From Synechococcus sp. UW105 (GTDB lineage: Bacteria; Cyanobacteriota; Cyanobacteriia; PCC-6307; Cyanobiaceae): a DNA stretch of 64,000 nucleotides. The stretch's first letter is position 1. Each line of letters starts with the position of its first letter. The position numbers and the translations under genes are program-made. Shown piece by piece: positions 48,859-60,397 of this stretch. The stretch lies in contig NZ_UCNN01000019.1 in assembly GCF_900473935.1 (NCBI RefSeq), forward strand, positions 124,001 to 188,000. The letters run 5' to 3'. The notes under the pieces were generated by a model. That model was not told the DNA's origin. It worked only from the letters and a program-made list of their open reading frames with translations, and did not search any database.

Positions 48859-48936
48859 GCCTGACGGAGTGCGCACCCTGCCGGTGTAAGCTTCCTCACG
48901 TCGATTGACTGGCTCAAGGGCCCAGCCATCGACCAT

Positions 48937-49009
48937 GGGGCCATAGCTCAGCTGGTAGAGCACCTGCATGGCATGCAGGGGGTCAGGAGTTCGAGTCTCC
49001 TTGGCTCCA
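48937..49009 (+). tRNA. tRNA-Ala (GGC anticodon)
   Basis: Seventy-three nucleotides fold as a cloverleaf. The acceptor stem is GGGGCCA/TGGCTCC with one G-T pair and discriminator A. The anticodon stem CCTGC/GCAGG encloses the loop ATGGCAT, which gives anticodon GGC. The T-arm holds GTTCGAGTC. CCA is not encoded. The 3' half from the anticodon loop is the attachment site of the element that follows. Confidence 0.95.
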
Positions 49010-49012
49010 TTC
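48968..49012 (+). repeat. Left attachment site (45-bp direct repeat, in tRNA-Ala)
   Basis: The sequence from the tRNA anticodon loop through the 3' end plus TTC is identical over 45 bp to 57931-57975. It is the left end of the integrated element. The tRNA stays complete because the element supplies the 3' half. Confidence 0.93.
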
Positions 49013-49071: not shown

Positions 49072-49155
49072 TTCTGCGCATCGTGTCCTACCTGGGTAGT
49101 CCCATGTCTGCCCATTTCTGCGCATGATTCTGCGCATAGAAATTGTTCTGCGCAC
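49072..49155 (+). repeat. Four TTCTGCGCAT repeats upstream of the integrase gene
   Basis: The 10-bp motif TTCTGCGCAT occurs at 49072, 49116 and 49128, and with a last-base change at 49146-49155, ending exactly before the integrase ATG. Spacing is irregular. Their place next to the attachment site suggests arm-type sites for the integrase or operators of its gene. The same motif recurs at the right end. Confidence 0.75.
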
Positions 49156-50475
49156 ATGCCTCAGCAGAAGTGGTTCGCCCGCCTTCGTGGGCAGATAAAA
49201 GACAGGTGTGGACTGGGTTGGGGCATCGCTGATCGCAACGGTGATACCCAGCTCACCCGCCGCATCAATGATGGAAAGCAGCACCAGAACCCGCGGCAAT
49301 CGGTGCAGCTGGGGGTGCCATGGAACCCGGCCTGCAGCGGGGATATTTTTTTGAAGGTCTGCCAGCTCAAGCAGCTGGTGGACGAGCGCCACTGCTCGCT
49401 GGCCGAAGCCAAAAAAAAGCTAGATGCGAAGGACAGCGCCACCCCCACCATCACCCGGTCGGTGGATGACGAGGACAGCGGCTGGGACGCCGTCATCGGT
49501 GGCTTCATCGACAAGCGACGGCAGATGAACCGCGCCACAACTATGCGCGACCTGAACGGCCACATGAAGCGGGTGCGGAAGACCCTGGAGAAGAAGCCAC
49601 GCCCCCAGAGCGGAGCGGACTTGATGAAGGCTTATGCCCGGCAGCATTTCAAGAATTGCCGCCCCGGTGGATCAGGTCGGGTGGTGCAGCTCAATAATGT
49701 CCGTGCGCTGCTTCGCTACGCGATCAAGGAATACGGCTACGACAGCCGCTGGAAACCGCTGGATAACGATGACCTGCGGGACTTGATCGGTACTGACGAC
49801 AGGCCCACTGAGGACAAGCTGACGCCACCGATGATGCCCAACGATCTGGGCACCCTGCTGGATGCGCTGAGGGATGCCGATAGAACCAGCCTGCTGCTGC
49901 TGGCGGGGATCATCGGCATCTACGGCTTGCGTCCTCATGAAGTCGCTCAGCTGATCTGGGACGACGGGCATCTGAAGGTCAGACCCGGTGGCAAACGGAA
50001 CAAAGCCACCCGCGGCAAGAAGCAAAAGAACAGGTTGGTGCTGCCCTTCGACGTTCCTGGCAGAGAAGGCGAAGGGGAGCGTCTTGTGATGCTCTGGCGC
50101 ACAGGCACGATTCGCTTTCCTCAGGCCGTCCTGAACCGCATCAACGAAGTTGAAATGAAGGGCTTCAAGCCTGTGGGGGATGAGATCCGGCAGCAGCTCG
50201 AACGCTTCAAGTTCTGGCAGGGGTTGGCGGCCATCAACCCCGGTTTGATCCCGTACAGCCTGCGGCATGGTTGTGCTTATCGGATGCACAAGTCCTATGG
50301 CCGCCCGTTATCCATTAGGGATGCTGCTGCGCTGCTCGGGCACACCCCGCAAGAGCACCACGCCAGTTATGGACAGTGGATTGATGAAGCTGGCTTGATT
50401 GAGGCTGTCGAACGGATTACTGGAGCAGGTAGGACAACTTTGGAGGGGATACCTTGTCACCCCTTGACCTACTAA
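49156..50475 (+). CDS. Tyrosine recombinase (site-specific integrase)
   Basis: 439 residues from ATG 49156. The frame is open back into the tRNA, but no start with a good context lies there. Catalytic residues in order: Arg259 (GLRPHEV), Tyr367 in place of the usual His with Arg370 (PYSLRHG), His396 (LGHT) and the nucleophile Tyr405 (ASYGQW). The N-terminal part (1-100) is a divergent arm-binding region and residues 110-200 a core-binding domain. It should catalyse integration into tRNA-Ala. It is transcribed away from the tRNA, into the element. Confidence 0.92.
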   Translation: MPQQKWFARLRGQIKDRCGLGWGIADRNGDTQLTRRINDGKQHQNPRQSVQLGVPWNPACSGDIFLKVCQLKQLVDERHCSLAEAKKKLDAKDSATPTITRSVDDEDSGWDAVIGGFIDKRRQMNRATTMRDLNGHMKRVRKTLEKKPRPQSGADLMKAYARQHFKNCRPGGSGRVVQLNNVRALLRYAIKEYGYDSRWKPLDNDDLRDLIGTDDRPTEDKLTPPMMPNDLGTLLDALRDADRTSLLLLAGIIGIYGLRPHEVAQLIWDDGHLKVRPGGKRNKATRGKKQKNRLVLPFDVPGREGEGERLVMLWRTGTIRFPQAVLNRINEVEMKGFKPVGDEIRQQLERFKFWQGLAAINPGLIPYSLRHGCAYRMHKSYGRPLSIRDAAALLGHTPQEHHASYGQWIDEAGLIEAVERITGAGRTTLEGIPCHPLTY

Positions 50476-50725: not shown

Positions 50726-50974
50726 GTGCCTGAACATGAATGGCTGCCAACCCCGGCAGCAACAAAAGCCATGGGCTACAGCGCCCGCACGCTGAAGCGT
50801 TATCGCGACTGTAACGGCGGCTTCCTGATTGCTGGTGAGGATTGGTGCTTCGGACCAACTGGTGCCAGCTCAATCAGCTGGAACATCACTACCTGCCGTC
50901 AGAAATTTCACGAGCGTGGGCGTCTTATGCTCGCTATCGATGCTGAGCGTAAACAGCTTGCGGAGGTGGACTGA
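50726..50974 (+). CDS. Excisionase-like small DNA-binding protein
   Basis: 82 residues from GTG 50726. EWLPTPAATKAMGYSARTLKRY resembles the winged-helix start of Xis/MerR-like excisionases, and WCFGPTGASSISWNITTCRQKF resembles the wing seen in such phage proteins. It lies next to the integrase and overlaps the following gene by one base (TGATG). It likely directs excision, but a purely regulatory role is possible. Confidence 0.6.
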   Translation: MPEHEWLPTPAATKAMGYSARTLKRYRDCNGGFLIAGEDWCFGPTGASSISWNITTCRQKFHERGRLMLAIDAERKQLAEVD

Positions 50975-51230: not shown

Positions 51231-52301
51231 ATGACCTCGAACCGAATAACGGCCCAAGGTCACGCCCTGCCAAGGAGTGACCGCAGGCTAAGCGAGCCCC
51301 TGCTGTTTGGGCAGGGGGTCACACGCCCAGGAGACGTTCCTACGCCTGCGATTTGGTGGCCGACGGGCCGTCACTATGCGCAGAACAGTGCGCAGAATTT
51401 CATCTTCGACATCGGCCAGGCGCTGACCTGGGCCGAACTCCTGGGGAAGGATCCCACGGGAGCTGACACCCGCATCAGAGCCATCCGCCGTGGCGAGGGA
51501 GCCAAGAAGGGCAACCTCGCCGAAGACTGCGAGCAGATCCCCGGCTGGCAAGTCGAAGGCCGCAACATCTACGCCGTACCGAATGGTGGTGGCGACACCG
51601 CTGACAGCATCGATGCCTGTGTTGGTCTGTTCGCTGAGTGGGATCACCTGAGCCTGGCGGAGCAGCTCGAACTGCCTGCTCAGCTGGGTCTGCCCTCACC
51701 CACCTTCGGCCTGTTCACCGGAGGCAAGAGCCTTCACGTCTACTGGGTGTTCGAGCAGCCGATCGAGGTGGCTCGGTGGCGGCCGTTGATGCAGCGACTG
51801 ATCAATCACTGCGGCAGCGATCCTGCGGTGAAGGACCCCAGCCGGTGCATGCGATTGCCCGGTGCCTGGTACATCCGCATGGACAGCAGGGTTGGGGATA
51901 AGAGCACACTCCTGAACATCACCGGCGACCGGTTCACTCCAGAGCTGTTCGAGGAGCTGCTGCCCCCGTTGCCGGAACGCCCGCGTCACATCCCGAAGTC
52001 GCTTTATCGCAAGCAGCCGACGCGGTCGCTGCAGGACATCGCCGATGCGTTGAAGCTCATCCCGCCACGGGTACCGGGACACGGCAATTACCCGGTGGAT
52101 CGGAACATGGCCTGGGGCCTGAAGGCTGCCTGCCGCGACGCTGGGTACGGTACGGATGTGGCTCGGAAACTACTCGAAGCCCACAGCCCTAACGGTTGGG
52201 ACCCCGACCAGATCCTCCGCTCTGGAGGTGATCAGATCAGTGCTGGGACGTTCTGGTTGCGAGCCCAACAGCACGGCTATGTGAGGCACGCTGATGGATG
52301 A
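51231..52301 (+). CDS. Primase-polymerase-like (AEP/RepB-type) replication protein
   Basis: 356 residues from ATG 51231. The centre has AEP-like motifs: acidic GLFAEWDH (Glu136, Asp138), then FTGGKSLHVYWVF (Gly164-His169, nucleotide-binding) and DPSRCMRLPGAW (possible motif III). This order is typical of primase-polymerases and RepB-type primases in phages and satellites. A C-terminal region with HGNYPVDRNMAWGLKAACR resembles the PriCT-like tail. It overlaps the next gene by 8 bp. It probably primes replication of the excised element. Confidence 0.65.
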   Translation: MTSNRITAQGHALPRSDRRLSEPLLFGQGVTRPGDVPTPAIWWPTGRHYAQNSAQNFIFDIGQALTWAELLGKDPTGADTRIRAIRRGEGAKKGNLAEDCEQIPGWQVEGRNIYAVPNGGGDTADSIDACVGLFAEWDHLSLAEQLELPAQLGLPSPTFGLFTGGKSLHVYWVFEQPIEVARWRPLMQRLINHCGSDPAVKDPSRCMRLPGAWYIRMDSRVGDKSTLLNITGDRFTPELFEELLPPLPERPRHIPKSLYRKQPTRSLQDIADALKLIPPRVPGHGNYPVDRNMAWGLKAACRDAGYGTDVARKLLEAHSPNGWDPDQILRSGGDQISAGTFWLRAQQHGYVRHADG

Positions 52302-53721
52302 CCTGCAGGCTGTAGTGGACCACTGCTCCACCATCCCGGACGAAGCGATCATGGATGCTGCCAAGAGCATTCGGGTCGCTCAGGGCCGCGAGCGATTCGG
52401 TTTTGAGAACCTCTTGCCTACCGATTTGGCGAGGGCGGTGGAGCTAGTGACGGAGGTGCTGCCTGCTGATGCATTGACCAGTGTTCTGACGCTGCTCTGC
52501 GGTTACAGCGGCCTGCTCAAGCTCGGCACCCAGGTGACGCCGGATGGTCGCTACTGGGTCCCCTGCAACCTTTACGTGGGGTTGGTGGGGCCGAGCGGTT
52601 TGAGCAAGAGTCCAATCCAGAAGGCCCTCATTTCCGATCCATCCCGGCAGCTTCAGCAGGAAGAGAAGGTTCGGTATGACCTGCTGCTGAAGGTATGGGA
52701 GGACTCCGAACCACAAGACAGGGAGAAACATCCTCCCCGCCGGTGCCCGCTGCATCAGAACGAGTTCTCCCCGGAGGCGCTCGGGATGTGGCTGCAGTTC
52801 TACGAGCAGGCTGGCCTTGGTGTTCTGCTGACCCGCGCTGAATTGAGCGGGATGTTGCGGGCGCTTGAGGCAGACACTCGGCGTGGCAGGGGTACCGCTG
52901 AAGCTCAATTTTTAGAGTCCTATGACGGTGATGGCTGCTGCTCGCACCGTGTCGGTAAAGCCGGTACGGGGGAGGTGCGGAGCTATTCCAGTTGCCACGT
53001 CTCCCTATTTGGCGGCGTCCAGGACGAGGTACTCCGCGAGTTGGTCAATGGGTCGGACGCCAGCGGTAAATTCGCCCGGATCCTGATGGTGAAGTGCCCC
53101 CGCCGACCGCTGGAGTTGAAGGACGATCCGATTACTCCAGAGGAGGACGAGGCGTTTCTTCGAGCGGAACGGGTCTTGGCCTTCTACGCCCGTCAGCTGT
53201 ACGAGCTGCCGCCCCGTCGGTATCGACTCAGAGCAGAGGCTCGCCGCCATCTGAACGGCTGGTTTCGCGCCCACCAGCTGGAGGCGCTCAAGCCTTCAAC
53301 GCCGTCGGTCATCTCAGCAATGCTGGGTAAGACCAGCGCAAATGCACTTCGGTTGGCAGGGCTCCTCCACCTCGTTTGGACCAAGGGGGATTCAGCCACC
53401 GAGATCAGTCTGGATTTGATGCAGGCGGCCACCGCAATGGTGGATCAGGTCGTCTCGGAGACGCGGGAGTTCCACCAGCCCCCGGAGAGCATCGGCACCG
53501 AACTGATGCGTCACATCCATTCCCTCAGCTGGGAAAACGATGTTCTGAAGCAGGACCTGATCACCTGGCAGGACGCCAAGAACAAGGGCTCCAAGCGCAT
53601 CCGTGATTGTGGTGCGAACGGTTTTAAGAAGGCCATCGACACGCTGGAGGAGAGGGGGCTGGGTGAGTGTCTCAAGGCCGGTTCGGTCCCGGCCTTCAGG
53701 GCCCGAAAACCCTGGCCTTAG
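52294..53721 (+). CDS. DUF3987-type helicase/primase-associated protein
   Basis: 475 residues. A P-loop-like motif VGLVGPSGLSKSPIQKAL (Lys105-Ser106) is followed by LLTRAELSGMLRAL and FLESYDGDG, matching DUF3987-like ATPases common in phages and satellites next to primases. The C-terminal part holds a helical domain and a likely winged helix (KRIRDCGANGFKKAIDTLEERGL). It overlaps the primase gene, so the two act together in element replication (inference). Confidence 0.75.
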   Translation: MDDLQAVVDHCSTIPDEAIMDAAKSIRVAQGRERFGFENLLPTDLARAVELVTEVLPADALTSVLTLLCGYSGLLKLGTQVTPDGRYWVPCNLYVGLVGPSGLSKSPIQKALISDPSRQLQQEEKVRYDLLLKVWEDSEPQDREKHPPRRCPLHQNEFSPEALGMWLQFYEQAGLGVLLTRAELSGMLRALEADTRRGRGTAEAQFLESYDGDGCCSHRVGKAGTGEVRSYSSCHVSLFGGVQDEVLRELVNGSDASGKFARILMVKCPRRPLELKDDPITPEEDEAFLRAERVLAFYARQLYELPPRRYRLRAEARRHLNGWFRAHQLEALKPSTPSVISAMLGKTSANALRLAGLLHLVWTKGDSATEISLDLMQAATAMVDQVVSETREFHQPPESIGTELMRHIHSLSWENDVLKQDLITWQDAKNKGSKRIRDCGANGFKKAIDTLEERGLGECLKAGSVPAFRARKPWP

Positions 53722-55133: not shown

Positions 55134-55256
55134 GTACAAGCCCATCTAGGATCTAATATCTCATCAAAACTCGCTTAAAAGCAGCTCATTGGCGGTTCAA
55201 TACCTGGCACTTGCAAATACTTAACTCAACCTAGAGCAGCAGAGATGCTGATCCTG

Positions 55257-55264
55257 TGCTATGG
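55257..55264 (+). promoter_or_regulatory. Extended -10-like element before precursor peptide 1
   Basis: TGCTATGG lies 30 bp upstream of the ATG at 55287. Almost the same element stands 31 bp before the second precursor gene. Matches the TGnTA form of extended -10 promoters. Confidence 0.4.
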
Positions 55265-55286
55265 ATACTGTATTGGCACCTATCCC

Positions 55287-55553
55287 ATGTCAGAAGAACA
55301 ACTCAAGGCATTCATCGCAAAAGTCAAAGGAGATATCAGCCTTCAAGAGAAGCTCAAAGCTGCAGCTAATCCTGATGATGTTGTGGCGCTTGCTAAAGCT
55401 ACTGGCCTTATGATTTCCGCTGACGATTTGAAGAAAGATCAAGCGGAGATTTCGGAAGAAGAGCTCGAAGTCATTTCTGGCGGTGGCTGCGGCGCGTGGA
55501 GCATTAAGTCTGTTGGGACATATCAATGCCAGGGAAACCCTCAAGATGGATAA
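55287..55553 (+). CDS. Prochlorosin-like lanthipeptide precursor 1 (Nif11 leader)
   Basis: 88 residues from ATG 55287. Residues 1-66 are a Nif11-type leader (MSEEQLKAFIAKVKGD) ending ISEEELEVISGG, a double-glycine cleavage site. The core after Gly66 has Cys68 and Cys81 and three dehydratable residues, Ser72, Ser75 and Thr78, allowing up to two thioether rings. This matches ProcA precursors of marine picocyanobacteria, which a ProcM-type LanM synthetase modifies in trans. No such enzyme is in this window. A terminator follows. The product would be an exported cyclic peptide. Confidence 0.85.
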   Translation: MSEEQLKAFIAKVKGDISLQEKLKAAANPDDVVALAKATGLMISADDLKKDQAEISEEELEVISGGGCGAWSIKSVGTYQCQGNPQDG

Positions 55554-55683: not shown

Positions 55684-55920
55684 ATGCCAGAAGAGCAACT
55701 TAAAGCGTTCCTAGTACAGGTTAAAGGCGACAGCAGCCTCCAGGAAAGACTCAAAGCTGCAGCTAATCCTGATGCTGTAGTTTCTATTGCTAAGGAAGCA
55801 GGATTTATGATTTCTGCTGATGACATTAAGAAGGCTCAATCAGAGATTTCAGAAGAAGAGCTGGAAAGCGTGGCTGGTGGTCAACGAACTCATTGTTTGG
55901 CCAGCCAATGGGCAATGTAA
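55684..55920 (+). CDS. Prochlorosin-like lanthipeptide precursor 2 (Nif11 leader)
   Basis: 78 residues. The leader (MPEEQLKAFLVQVKGD...ISEEELESVAGG) matches precursor 1 at roughly 48 of the first 66 positions by eye, whereas the cores are unrelated. The core after Gly66 is only 12 residues with Thr69, one Cys (Cys71) and Ser74, so at most one thioether ring can form. The conserved leader with a hypervariable core is the hallmark of the prochlorosin family. The own promoter-like element and terminator make it an independent unit. Confidence 0.85.
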   Translation: MPEEQLKAFLVQVKGDSSLQERLKAAANPDAVVSIAKEAGFMISADDIKKAQSEISEEELESVAGGQRTHCLASQWAM

Positions 55921-57422: not shown

Positions 57423-57779
57423 TCAGAACCTAGTGCGGTGTGTAACCGTTGAGTTGACGCCTAAACCAGTCATCCAATCCAGCTGACGCACACAGCTCAC
57501 AACCGCTCCAGGGTTCTTCTGCTTCATTGCTTGACCAGCTGCGGCCATCAGCGTTTGGATCGACCATGCCAACATCTCCTCCCGATCAATCCCGGTCTTA
57601 TCGACGTCGGCCTTGATCTGAGCCCATGCTCGTTTCAGGAGCTTGTAGCCCTGTGCCCTTGAGATACCCCACTGCTGTCTCGCGAATTCGAGACAAGCTG
57701 TATTTGGTTCACCAGCAAGGAGCAGCCCCTGGAGCTGATCAATCCGACTAGTGGTCTCTTCCGTAGTGGCGCGTGCCAT
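57423..57779 (-). CDS. Possible terminase small subunit / DNA-binding protein
   Basis: 118 residues. The N-terminal part has a helix-turn-helix-like pattern (ACLEFARQQWGISRAQGYKLLKRAW), followed by helices (REEMLAWSIQTLMAAAGQAM) and GAVVSCVRQLDWMTGLG. Small terminase subunits of phages and satellites have this size and layout, and its position at the far end of the element matches satellites that redirect packaging. The match is by pattern only; another small DNA-binding protein is possible. Confidence 0.5.
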   Translation of the reverse strand: MARATTEETTSRIDQLQGLLLAGEPNTACLEFARQQWGISRAQGYKLLKRAWAQIKADVDKTGIDREEMLAWSIQTLMAAAGQAMKQKNPGAVVSCVRQLDWMTGLGVNSTVTHRTRF

Positions 57780-57843: not shown

Positions 57844-57865
57844 ATCTGCGCATCTTTCTGCGCAT
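57844..57865 (+). repeat. Two TTCTGCGCAT-like repeats at the right end
   Basis: ATCTGCGCAT (57844-57853) and TTCTGCGCAT (57856-57865) match the motif repeated four times beside the integrase. They lie 66-87 bp inside the right attachment site, as arm-type recombinase sites would. Confidence 0.7.
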
Positions 57866-57930
57866 ACAATTTGTATTAAATAAAGAAGAACCCAGTGATA
57901 GCAGTAGTTTATGAGGCTTATTTACCCTCT

Positions 57931-57975
57931 ATGGCATGCAGGGGGTCAGGAGTTCGAGTCTCCTTGGCTCCATTC
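57931..57975 (+). repeat. Right attachment site (45-bp direct repeat)
   Basis: Identical over 45 bp to the 3' half of tRNA-Ala at 48968-49012. It lacks the 5' half of the tRNA, so it is not a second tRNA gene. It marks the right boundary of the element. Confidence 0.93.
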
Positions 57976-58498
57976 GATTTCCCAAGTTGCTCACTGGTTT
58001 CTGCGCTGGTGGGCATTTTGATTGACCTGTCCTGATCAGCAGTCGTAAAGCAGTACCGCACGCTGCTCTCGACTCTCCACGTCGCTCTCTTTCATCTGCG
58101 ACTCGTCGTAATCCAAAGCCCGCAAAGGGCAGGCCGTAGCGCGGAACGGCTGATGCCTCCCATCGTGGATCCACTCCCCAACTGGCTGGCCATGGGCCGC
58201 ATCAATAGGCATCTCAACGATGCAACATCATGACCTCTGTATCTCTGCTGAAGGGACCCGACAGCGCTTTGTCAGCAGTTCCCATTCTTGGCTTCATGCC
58301 AAAGAAGGGGCAGGATCTCGTTGACTGGCGCCACTTGACGGACGACTCAATGCGCAGAAGTCAATCAAACGATCGGTTATTTGATAGGAACGCAATCCTC
58401 TTCGGTTAAACGCGTGACCTCCTGCTTTGTGGTGCTGAGCTGCCCGAGGGGATGGTGACCGGTCGGGCTTATGTGTGCGCGTTCCTAGGTGTGTAGCC

Positions 58499-60369: not shown

Positions 60370-60397
60370 AGGAGATCGAGTCTCCTTGGCTCGATTC
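60370..60397 (+). repeat. Third, diverged attachment-like copy
   Basis: AGGAGATCGAGTCTCC and the following TTGGCTCGATTC match the tRNA-Ala 3' end at 26 of 28 positions. The upstream part is lost. It is likely the right end of an older insertion at the same tRNA gene. Confidence 0.7.

Follow-up and report, generated by a model that had tools for sequence, protein, structure and literature searches.

The repeated word TTCTGCGCAT that marks both ends of a 9.0-kb element in Synechococcus sp. UW105 very probably serves the tyrosine integrase encoded by that element as its arm-type binding sites, a reading to which we assign a probability of roughly nine in ten. The preliminary description had offered arm-type integrase sites or operators. 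We favor the former because same-strand pairs of fixed pitch flank the attachment core at conserved distances and because related elements repeat the layout; the tracking of the word by the N-terminal domain of the integrase points the same way. A second assembly of core and arm sequences lies inside the primase gene and is probably also bound by the integrase.

The element and its repeats

The window, that is, the whole 64,000-nucleotide stretch analyzed, belongs to an assembly of 31 contigs and 2,655,880 bases. The element is inserted at a tRNA-Ala (GGC) gene (48936–49010, plus strand, located with ARAGORN). Repeat comparison placed the left attachment repeat at 48963–49012 and the right one at 57926–57975, both on the plus strand, and the two 50-bp sequences are 96% identical. 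The core is a 29-mer corresponding to the anticodon stem-loop, with the spacer ATGGCAT; it occupies 48957–48985 at attL and 57920–57948 at attR (plus strand in both cases).

The first gene of the element encodes the tyrosine integrase (int, 439 aa, 49156–50475, plus strand, ATG at 49156). It is followed by genes for a protein of 82 aa that occupies the excisionase position and has no assigned family (50726–50974, plus strand), an 84-aa protein, a primase-like protein (51231–52301, plus strand, with PHROG matches to unknown families as well as to phage DNA helicase), a DUF3987 helicase-like protein (52294–53721, plus strand), and a 360-aa protein without a family. Two Nif11-type peptides come next, and then small genes, including one on the minus strand for a 118-aa protein (57423–57779) that adjoins the right pair of repeats. 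The idea, formed by eye, that this protein is a terminase small subunit was supported by neither PHROGs nor Pfam, and the protein has no assigned family. The size of 9 kb and the combination of int with primase-like and DUF3987 helicase genes are features of phage satellites. None of the 10 element proteins searched matched a structural gene family, and the viral contigs searched for relatives of the element yielded none, which leaves room for mobilization by a helper phage. The Nif11-domain peptides (55245–55553 and 55684–55920, E about 1e-16) are carried by the element as cargo; a 200-bp stretch of their DNA is 76% alike, and they resemble precursors of modified peptides.

Motif copies are present at both ends of the element, as the preliminary description had reported, and all of the end copies are on the plus strand. 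Four lie between the left attachment site and the int ATG. The outermost, L1 (49072–49081), is a single exact copy 86 bp from the core 29-mer. L2 and L3 (49116–49125 and 49128–49137) are exact copies with a 12-bp pitch; their distances from the attL core are 130 and 142 bp. L4 (49146–49155) reads TTCTGCGCAC, ends in CAC, and abuts the int ATG, so that L2–L4 fill positions −40 to −1 of that start codon. Just inside the right attachment site, R1 (ATCTGCGCAT, 57844–57853) and R2 (TTCTGCGCAT, 57856–57865) again have a 12-bp pitch; R1 is 67 bp and R2 is 55 bp from the attR core. The two reversed copies described in the primase gene were also recovered, one exact (51376–51385) and one with a single mismatch (51388–51397), on the minus strand and with the same 12-bp pitch.

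The copies said to be scattered through a putative second element reduce to one exact copy on the minus strand (58350–58359). It lies outside attR and before a degenerate third att-like sequence, and reading of the sequence alone revealed no core-like site beside it. The degenerate sequence (60373–60396) is a third copy of the tRNA-Ala att, with 17 bp exact and more with mismatches, consistent with the remnant of a second element extending from 57976 up to that point.

The number of motif copies in the window is less informative than their location. Allowing up to one mismatch, the whole window contains 13 matches compared with 6.46 ± 2.45 in shuffled sequences; one of 100 shuffles reached 13, so the excess is only modest. 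The 9-kb element holds eight of the 13, six of them arranged in three pairs with a 12-bp pitch. In the 2,655,880 bases of the genome TTCTGCGCAT occurs exactly 12 times, with five copies in the element and a sixth at 58350. By simple arithmetic, an even spread would put about 0.04 copies in the element, and the remaining six are approximately the number expected by chance. The motif is therefore uncommon elsewhere in the genome, and it is its placement, not the window-wide count, that is distinctive.

A shared layout and an element-specific word

Within the genus, integrase homologues were present in 18 of 31 genomes (including that of the window); they also occurred at 39 loci among named genome contigs and, at the level of the family, in 247 of 400 genomes. 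The retrieved loci provided 132 unique full-length integrases, with identical proteins merged and near-identical ones kept apart; one had less than 150 bp of upstream DNA and was dropped from the count of upstream pairs. A tandem pair with a pitch of 11–13 bp was present within 250 bp 5′ of int for 98 of the remaining 131 homologues, compared with 126 of 2,620 control windows taken from the same loci. The words themselves differ from one relative to another (TTTGGCGCAC, TTTTGCGCTA, TTCTGCTCTA, AAATCAGACT, TTGCCCACA, and others). The word of the window is kept in its closest relatives, namely an element of Synechococcus sp. AG-670-A05 (L054), whose integrase is 91% identical to that of the window, and a truncated copy in genome G016. 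Since the word changes among relatives and is kept in the closest of them, it is element-specific, and the layout is general.

Occurrence at both ends was assessed in the 27 elements for which an att repeat was recognized. In 22 of them, a same-strand copy of the element's own motif lay no more than 200 bp inside attR, whereas only 15 of 540 control windows inside those elements contained it. Five elements had no copy at the right end (L034, L146 (+), L148, L186, and L190); some of their att calls are doubtful, and these elements were counted nonetheless. Related elements thus keep the arrangement noted in the preliminary description, each with its own motif.

Distances from the core were measured in 21 of these 27 elements; in the other six no tRNA anticodon loop was recognized. 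In 20 of the 21 the left pair starts 103–120 bp from the core 29-mer; the 130 bp in the window is one 12-bp unit beyond this range. The nearest right copy is 54–56 bp from the core in seven elements, including that of the window, and six of these seven have a second copy at 66–69 bp. Eleven elements have their right copy at other distances, from 39 to 112 bp, and three have no copy. Many of the elements are close relatives, and counts across them are therefore not independent. To judge by sequence, the layout is that of an attP bearing arm-type sites.

An element-specific word within a fixed layout has two uses. The more than 100 related integrases form a natural data set for studying how an N-terminal domain chooses its DNA, and the layout offers a way to locate the ends of elements from sequence alone.

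The same host carries another element (L051, contig C26) with its own word, TGCTCTCAC, at an 11-bp pitch; it has a 43-bp att repeat, the copies of which are 14 kb apart, and motif copies near both ends. On the contigs of L054, L063, and L146, at least two integrases of this family adjoin one another, each with its own arm word.

A probable mimic of the attachment site in the primase gene

The reversed pair in the primase gene is accompanied by a core-like 29-mer, CGAGCCCCTGC-TGTTTGG-GCAGGGGGTCA (51293–51321, plus strand), in the 5′ part of the primase-like ORF. Its half-sites are those found in the tRNA-Ala att core, AGAGCACCTGC-ATGGCAT-GCAGGGGGTCA, and its 7-bp spacer is different. The two copies of the reversed arm pair (51376–51397, minus strand) lie 55 and 67 bp past the 29-mer, which are the right-arm distances of the same element with the orientation turned round. 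With up to one mismatch, the pattern TGANNNCCTGC-N7-GCAGGNNNTCA occurs at three places in the 2.66-Mb genome: the tRNA-Ala core, the internal site at 51293–51321, and one other.

Comparable internal sites were sought in 86 elements, the number left of 98 after motif calls more than 150 bp from the int start were dropped. A plain scan for CCTGC-N7-GCAGG also returned chance matches in coding sequence (for example in L037, L130, and L211) and tRNA-Ala genes, and was replaced by the longer 29-mer with TGA/TCA flanks. The core consensus was built from the counted elements themselves; distance to the arm words played no part in it. A core-like 29-mer (no more than 2 of 14 mismatches) was found inside 29 of the 86 elements. 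When we further required the element's own word on the minus strand 53–57 or 65–69 bp past the 29-mer, 16 elements passed; with permuted words the mean was 0.12 elements and the maximum 1 (100 runs). Words in the plus orientation gave two matches in the 86 elements, at 51 and 76 bp. A looser version that allowed three mismatches was passed by 23 of 86 elements compared with 1–8 for permuted motifs; such matches are weak, and the strict test was therefore relied upon. The strict test finds no internal site in 70 of the 86 motif-bearing elements, so the site is not essential to the family.

Ten elements with an internal site have an attR that could be measured. In four of them (L042, L129, L133, and L158) the right arm departs from the 55/67-bp distances, and in L146 (−) it only comes near them. 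The position relative to the primase gene also varies. In L054 the frame from the upstream ATG stops before the arm pair, judged from the sequence, and in L129 it does not run on into the primase-like ORF, which places the internal site of both ahead of the primase gene. Several elements contain a second core and arm site in the same orientation past the helicase gene, preceding the 3′ end of a gene on the minus strand; no such second site was found in the element of the window.

The fixed 55/67-bp tie between the word and the core-like site suggests that one protein binds both, and we consider it probable that the integrase occupies the internal 29-mer together with the reversed pair, arranged as in the right arm. 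Binding would occur without recombination, because the internal spacer departs from the tRNA loop and, unlike the half-sites, is variable; the different spacer would block strand exchange. Close relatives illustrate this, with TGTTTGG in the window and TCAGTGA in L054, and the two internal sites of L133 have the spacers CACCGGA and TGGTAAT. Integrase bound here might hold back the primase-helicase genes, a tentative proposal that we rate at somewhat below even odds. More doubtful is a broader version, in which the integrase would serve as a silencer of the element by acting on att mimics that stand where the primase gene begins and, in several relatives, past the helicase gene too. The bound integrase may then loop across the 2.4–2.9 kb of the replication module, and replication would be off while the element is integrated and be released after excision or helper infection. 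As each element has its own arm word, elements resident in one host would not cross-regulate one another.

For paired internal sites the main rival is a cassette junction: the sites could be junctions or scars of a replication module moved, in the past or at present, by the integrase. Several elements (L037, L146 (−), L133, L054 (−), and L044) do have two sites in the same orientation around the primase and helicase genes, as this would predict. The explanation is nevertheless unlikely, as spacers differ both between the two sites of one element (L133) and between close relatives that keep the half-sites (the window and L054). On our preferred reading, of a site that is bound and not recombined, the internal att mimic suggests that an integrase may be tied to replication genes through a copy of its own docking site. 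Such a copy at replication genes is undescribed in the literature we searched, a set that has the main tycheposon and VEIME papers outside it.

The protein that reads the word

In 34 integrase sequences Arg259, Lys280, Arg370, and His396 are invariant and Tyr405 is nearly so; the His of the HxxR motif is replaced by Tyr367 in the window integrase. The predicted fold aligns best with lambda Int (Z 14) and also with Tn1549 Int and XerH. In the AlphaFold model a separate N-terminal domain (residues 1–95, alpha-beta-beta-beta-alpha-alpha) precedes the lambda-Int-like body. On its own, this domain gave best structural matches of Z 5.4 and lower, to unrelated proteins; none was a convincing match to a solved arm-binding domain. 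Lambda-class chains were absent among the matches listed, an absence that carries no weight against them.

Co-variation was used to ask which protein the word follows. In 73 integrases (after removal of those with a pair score below 9 or a motif more than 130 bp from the start), motif similarity correlated with that of the N-terminal domain (residues 1–88; partial rank correlation 0.43, permutation p 0.002), with the remaining two integrase domains held constant. The corresponding values were 0.07 (p 0.058) for the core-binding domain and −0.06 (p 0.91) for the catalytic domain. The N-terminal domain would bind the repeats, and the core-binding and catalytic domains would hold the anticodon-loop core, with the DNA bending between arm and core sites as it does in lambda. 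Integrase on the left copies, which reach up to the int ATG, may lower its own expression.

Excisionases often bind short repeats in the att arms, and the word could instead be read by the 82-aa protein, which is termed excisionase-like from its position and a weak resemblance only, or by another regulator of the element. In a second co-variation set of 45 elements, from which those lacking an excisionase-like ORF were dropped, the similarity of this protein predicts the motif nearly as well as that of the N-terminal domain (0.14, p 0.022, versus 0.17, p 0.012), and the two are about equally well supported as readers by this set. L193 and L181 have similar excisionase-like proteins (0.67) and different N-terminal domains (0.21), with a motif similarity of 0.43; for L203 and L137 the values are 0.71, 0.23, and 0.42. 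In pairs of this kind motif similarity is often at background, which favors the integrase as the reader, although the test is not decisive. The 55/67-bp tie to the core-like site likewise argues for a single protein on both. The excisionase-like protein is disfavored as the sole reader of the word, and we regard its reading of the repeats in place of the integrase as quite improbable.

Slightly less probable again is that the repeats are operators that act solely on transcription of int and the primase gene and take no part in recombination. Integrases can repress their own genes through attL; at KplE1, attL overlaps the int promoter and IntS represses int (PMC2951348). An operator role of the left copies, in addition to their role as arm sites, would be compatible with our data, since these copies cover the final 40 bp upstream of int. 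The operator reading also has in its favor that the internal pair falls within the 5′ portion of the primase ORF. Transcription alone leaves unexplained both the attR-side copies of 22 of 27 elements, which are 5–17 kb from int, and the fixed spacing to the att core.

Iterons are direct repeats, and the pair inside the primase gene raises the idea that the repeats are iterons of a primase-helicase replicon. This is very unlikely and was rejected, as placement follows the att cores and as a search, albeit shallow and on partly truncated loci, found no relative of the window primase or helicase in 69 of the 86 elements, of which 13 have an internal site and 56 lack one. A chance repeat or a host regulatory word, suggested by a window-wide count only modestly above shuffles, is ruled out for practical purposes by the concentration of the motif in the element, its left and right recurrence in relatives, and the fixed core distances.

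Arm-type sites of an integrase have clear precedents. Lambda Int is described as heterobivalent, binding arm-type and core-type sites of attP (PMC4880445). The elements studied here share with lambda two classes of site, arm sites flanking a core, and, in the predicted structure, a small, separate N-terminal domain. They differ in that the arm sites are mostly tandem pairs with an 11–13 bp pitch and a sequence that changes by element, in having extra core and arm sites inside the element, and in an N-terminal fold without a convincing match on its own. With KplE1 they have in common a tRNA target followed, in a single direction, by the att core, the arm sites, and int, with the arm sites near the int start; a second core and arm site at replication genes is not described there, as far as the accessible text goes (PMC2951348). 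Phage P4, as presented in that same partial text, resembles them as a satellite-like element with integrase sites at its own promoter, and no internal core and arm site is mentioned for it (PMC2951348). In being tRNA-flanked, in encoding a tyrosine recombinase, and in occurring in marine picocyanobacteria, the elements are like the tycheposons of Prochlorococcus as outlined in two reports (PMC10872708, PMC10187409). One of these describes a picocyanobacterial integrase family of Prochlorococcus and Synechococcus at tRNA-Phe/Cys, modelled on lambda Int; our integrases differ from it in their tRNA targets, and its text showed no word that begins with "arm" (PMC10187409).

In eight relatives (L043, L045, L046, L063, L076, L145, L146, and L148) a core-like 29-mer runs up to the int ATG beside the arm pair, where it is a candidate site for autoregulation.
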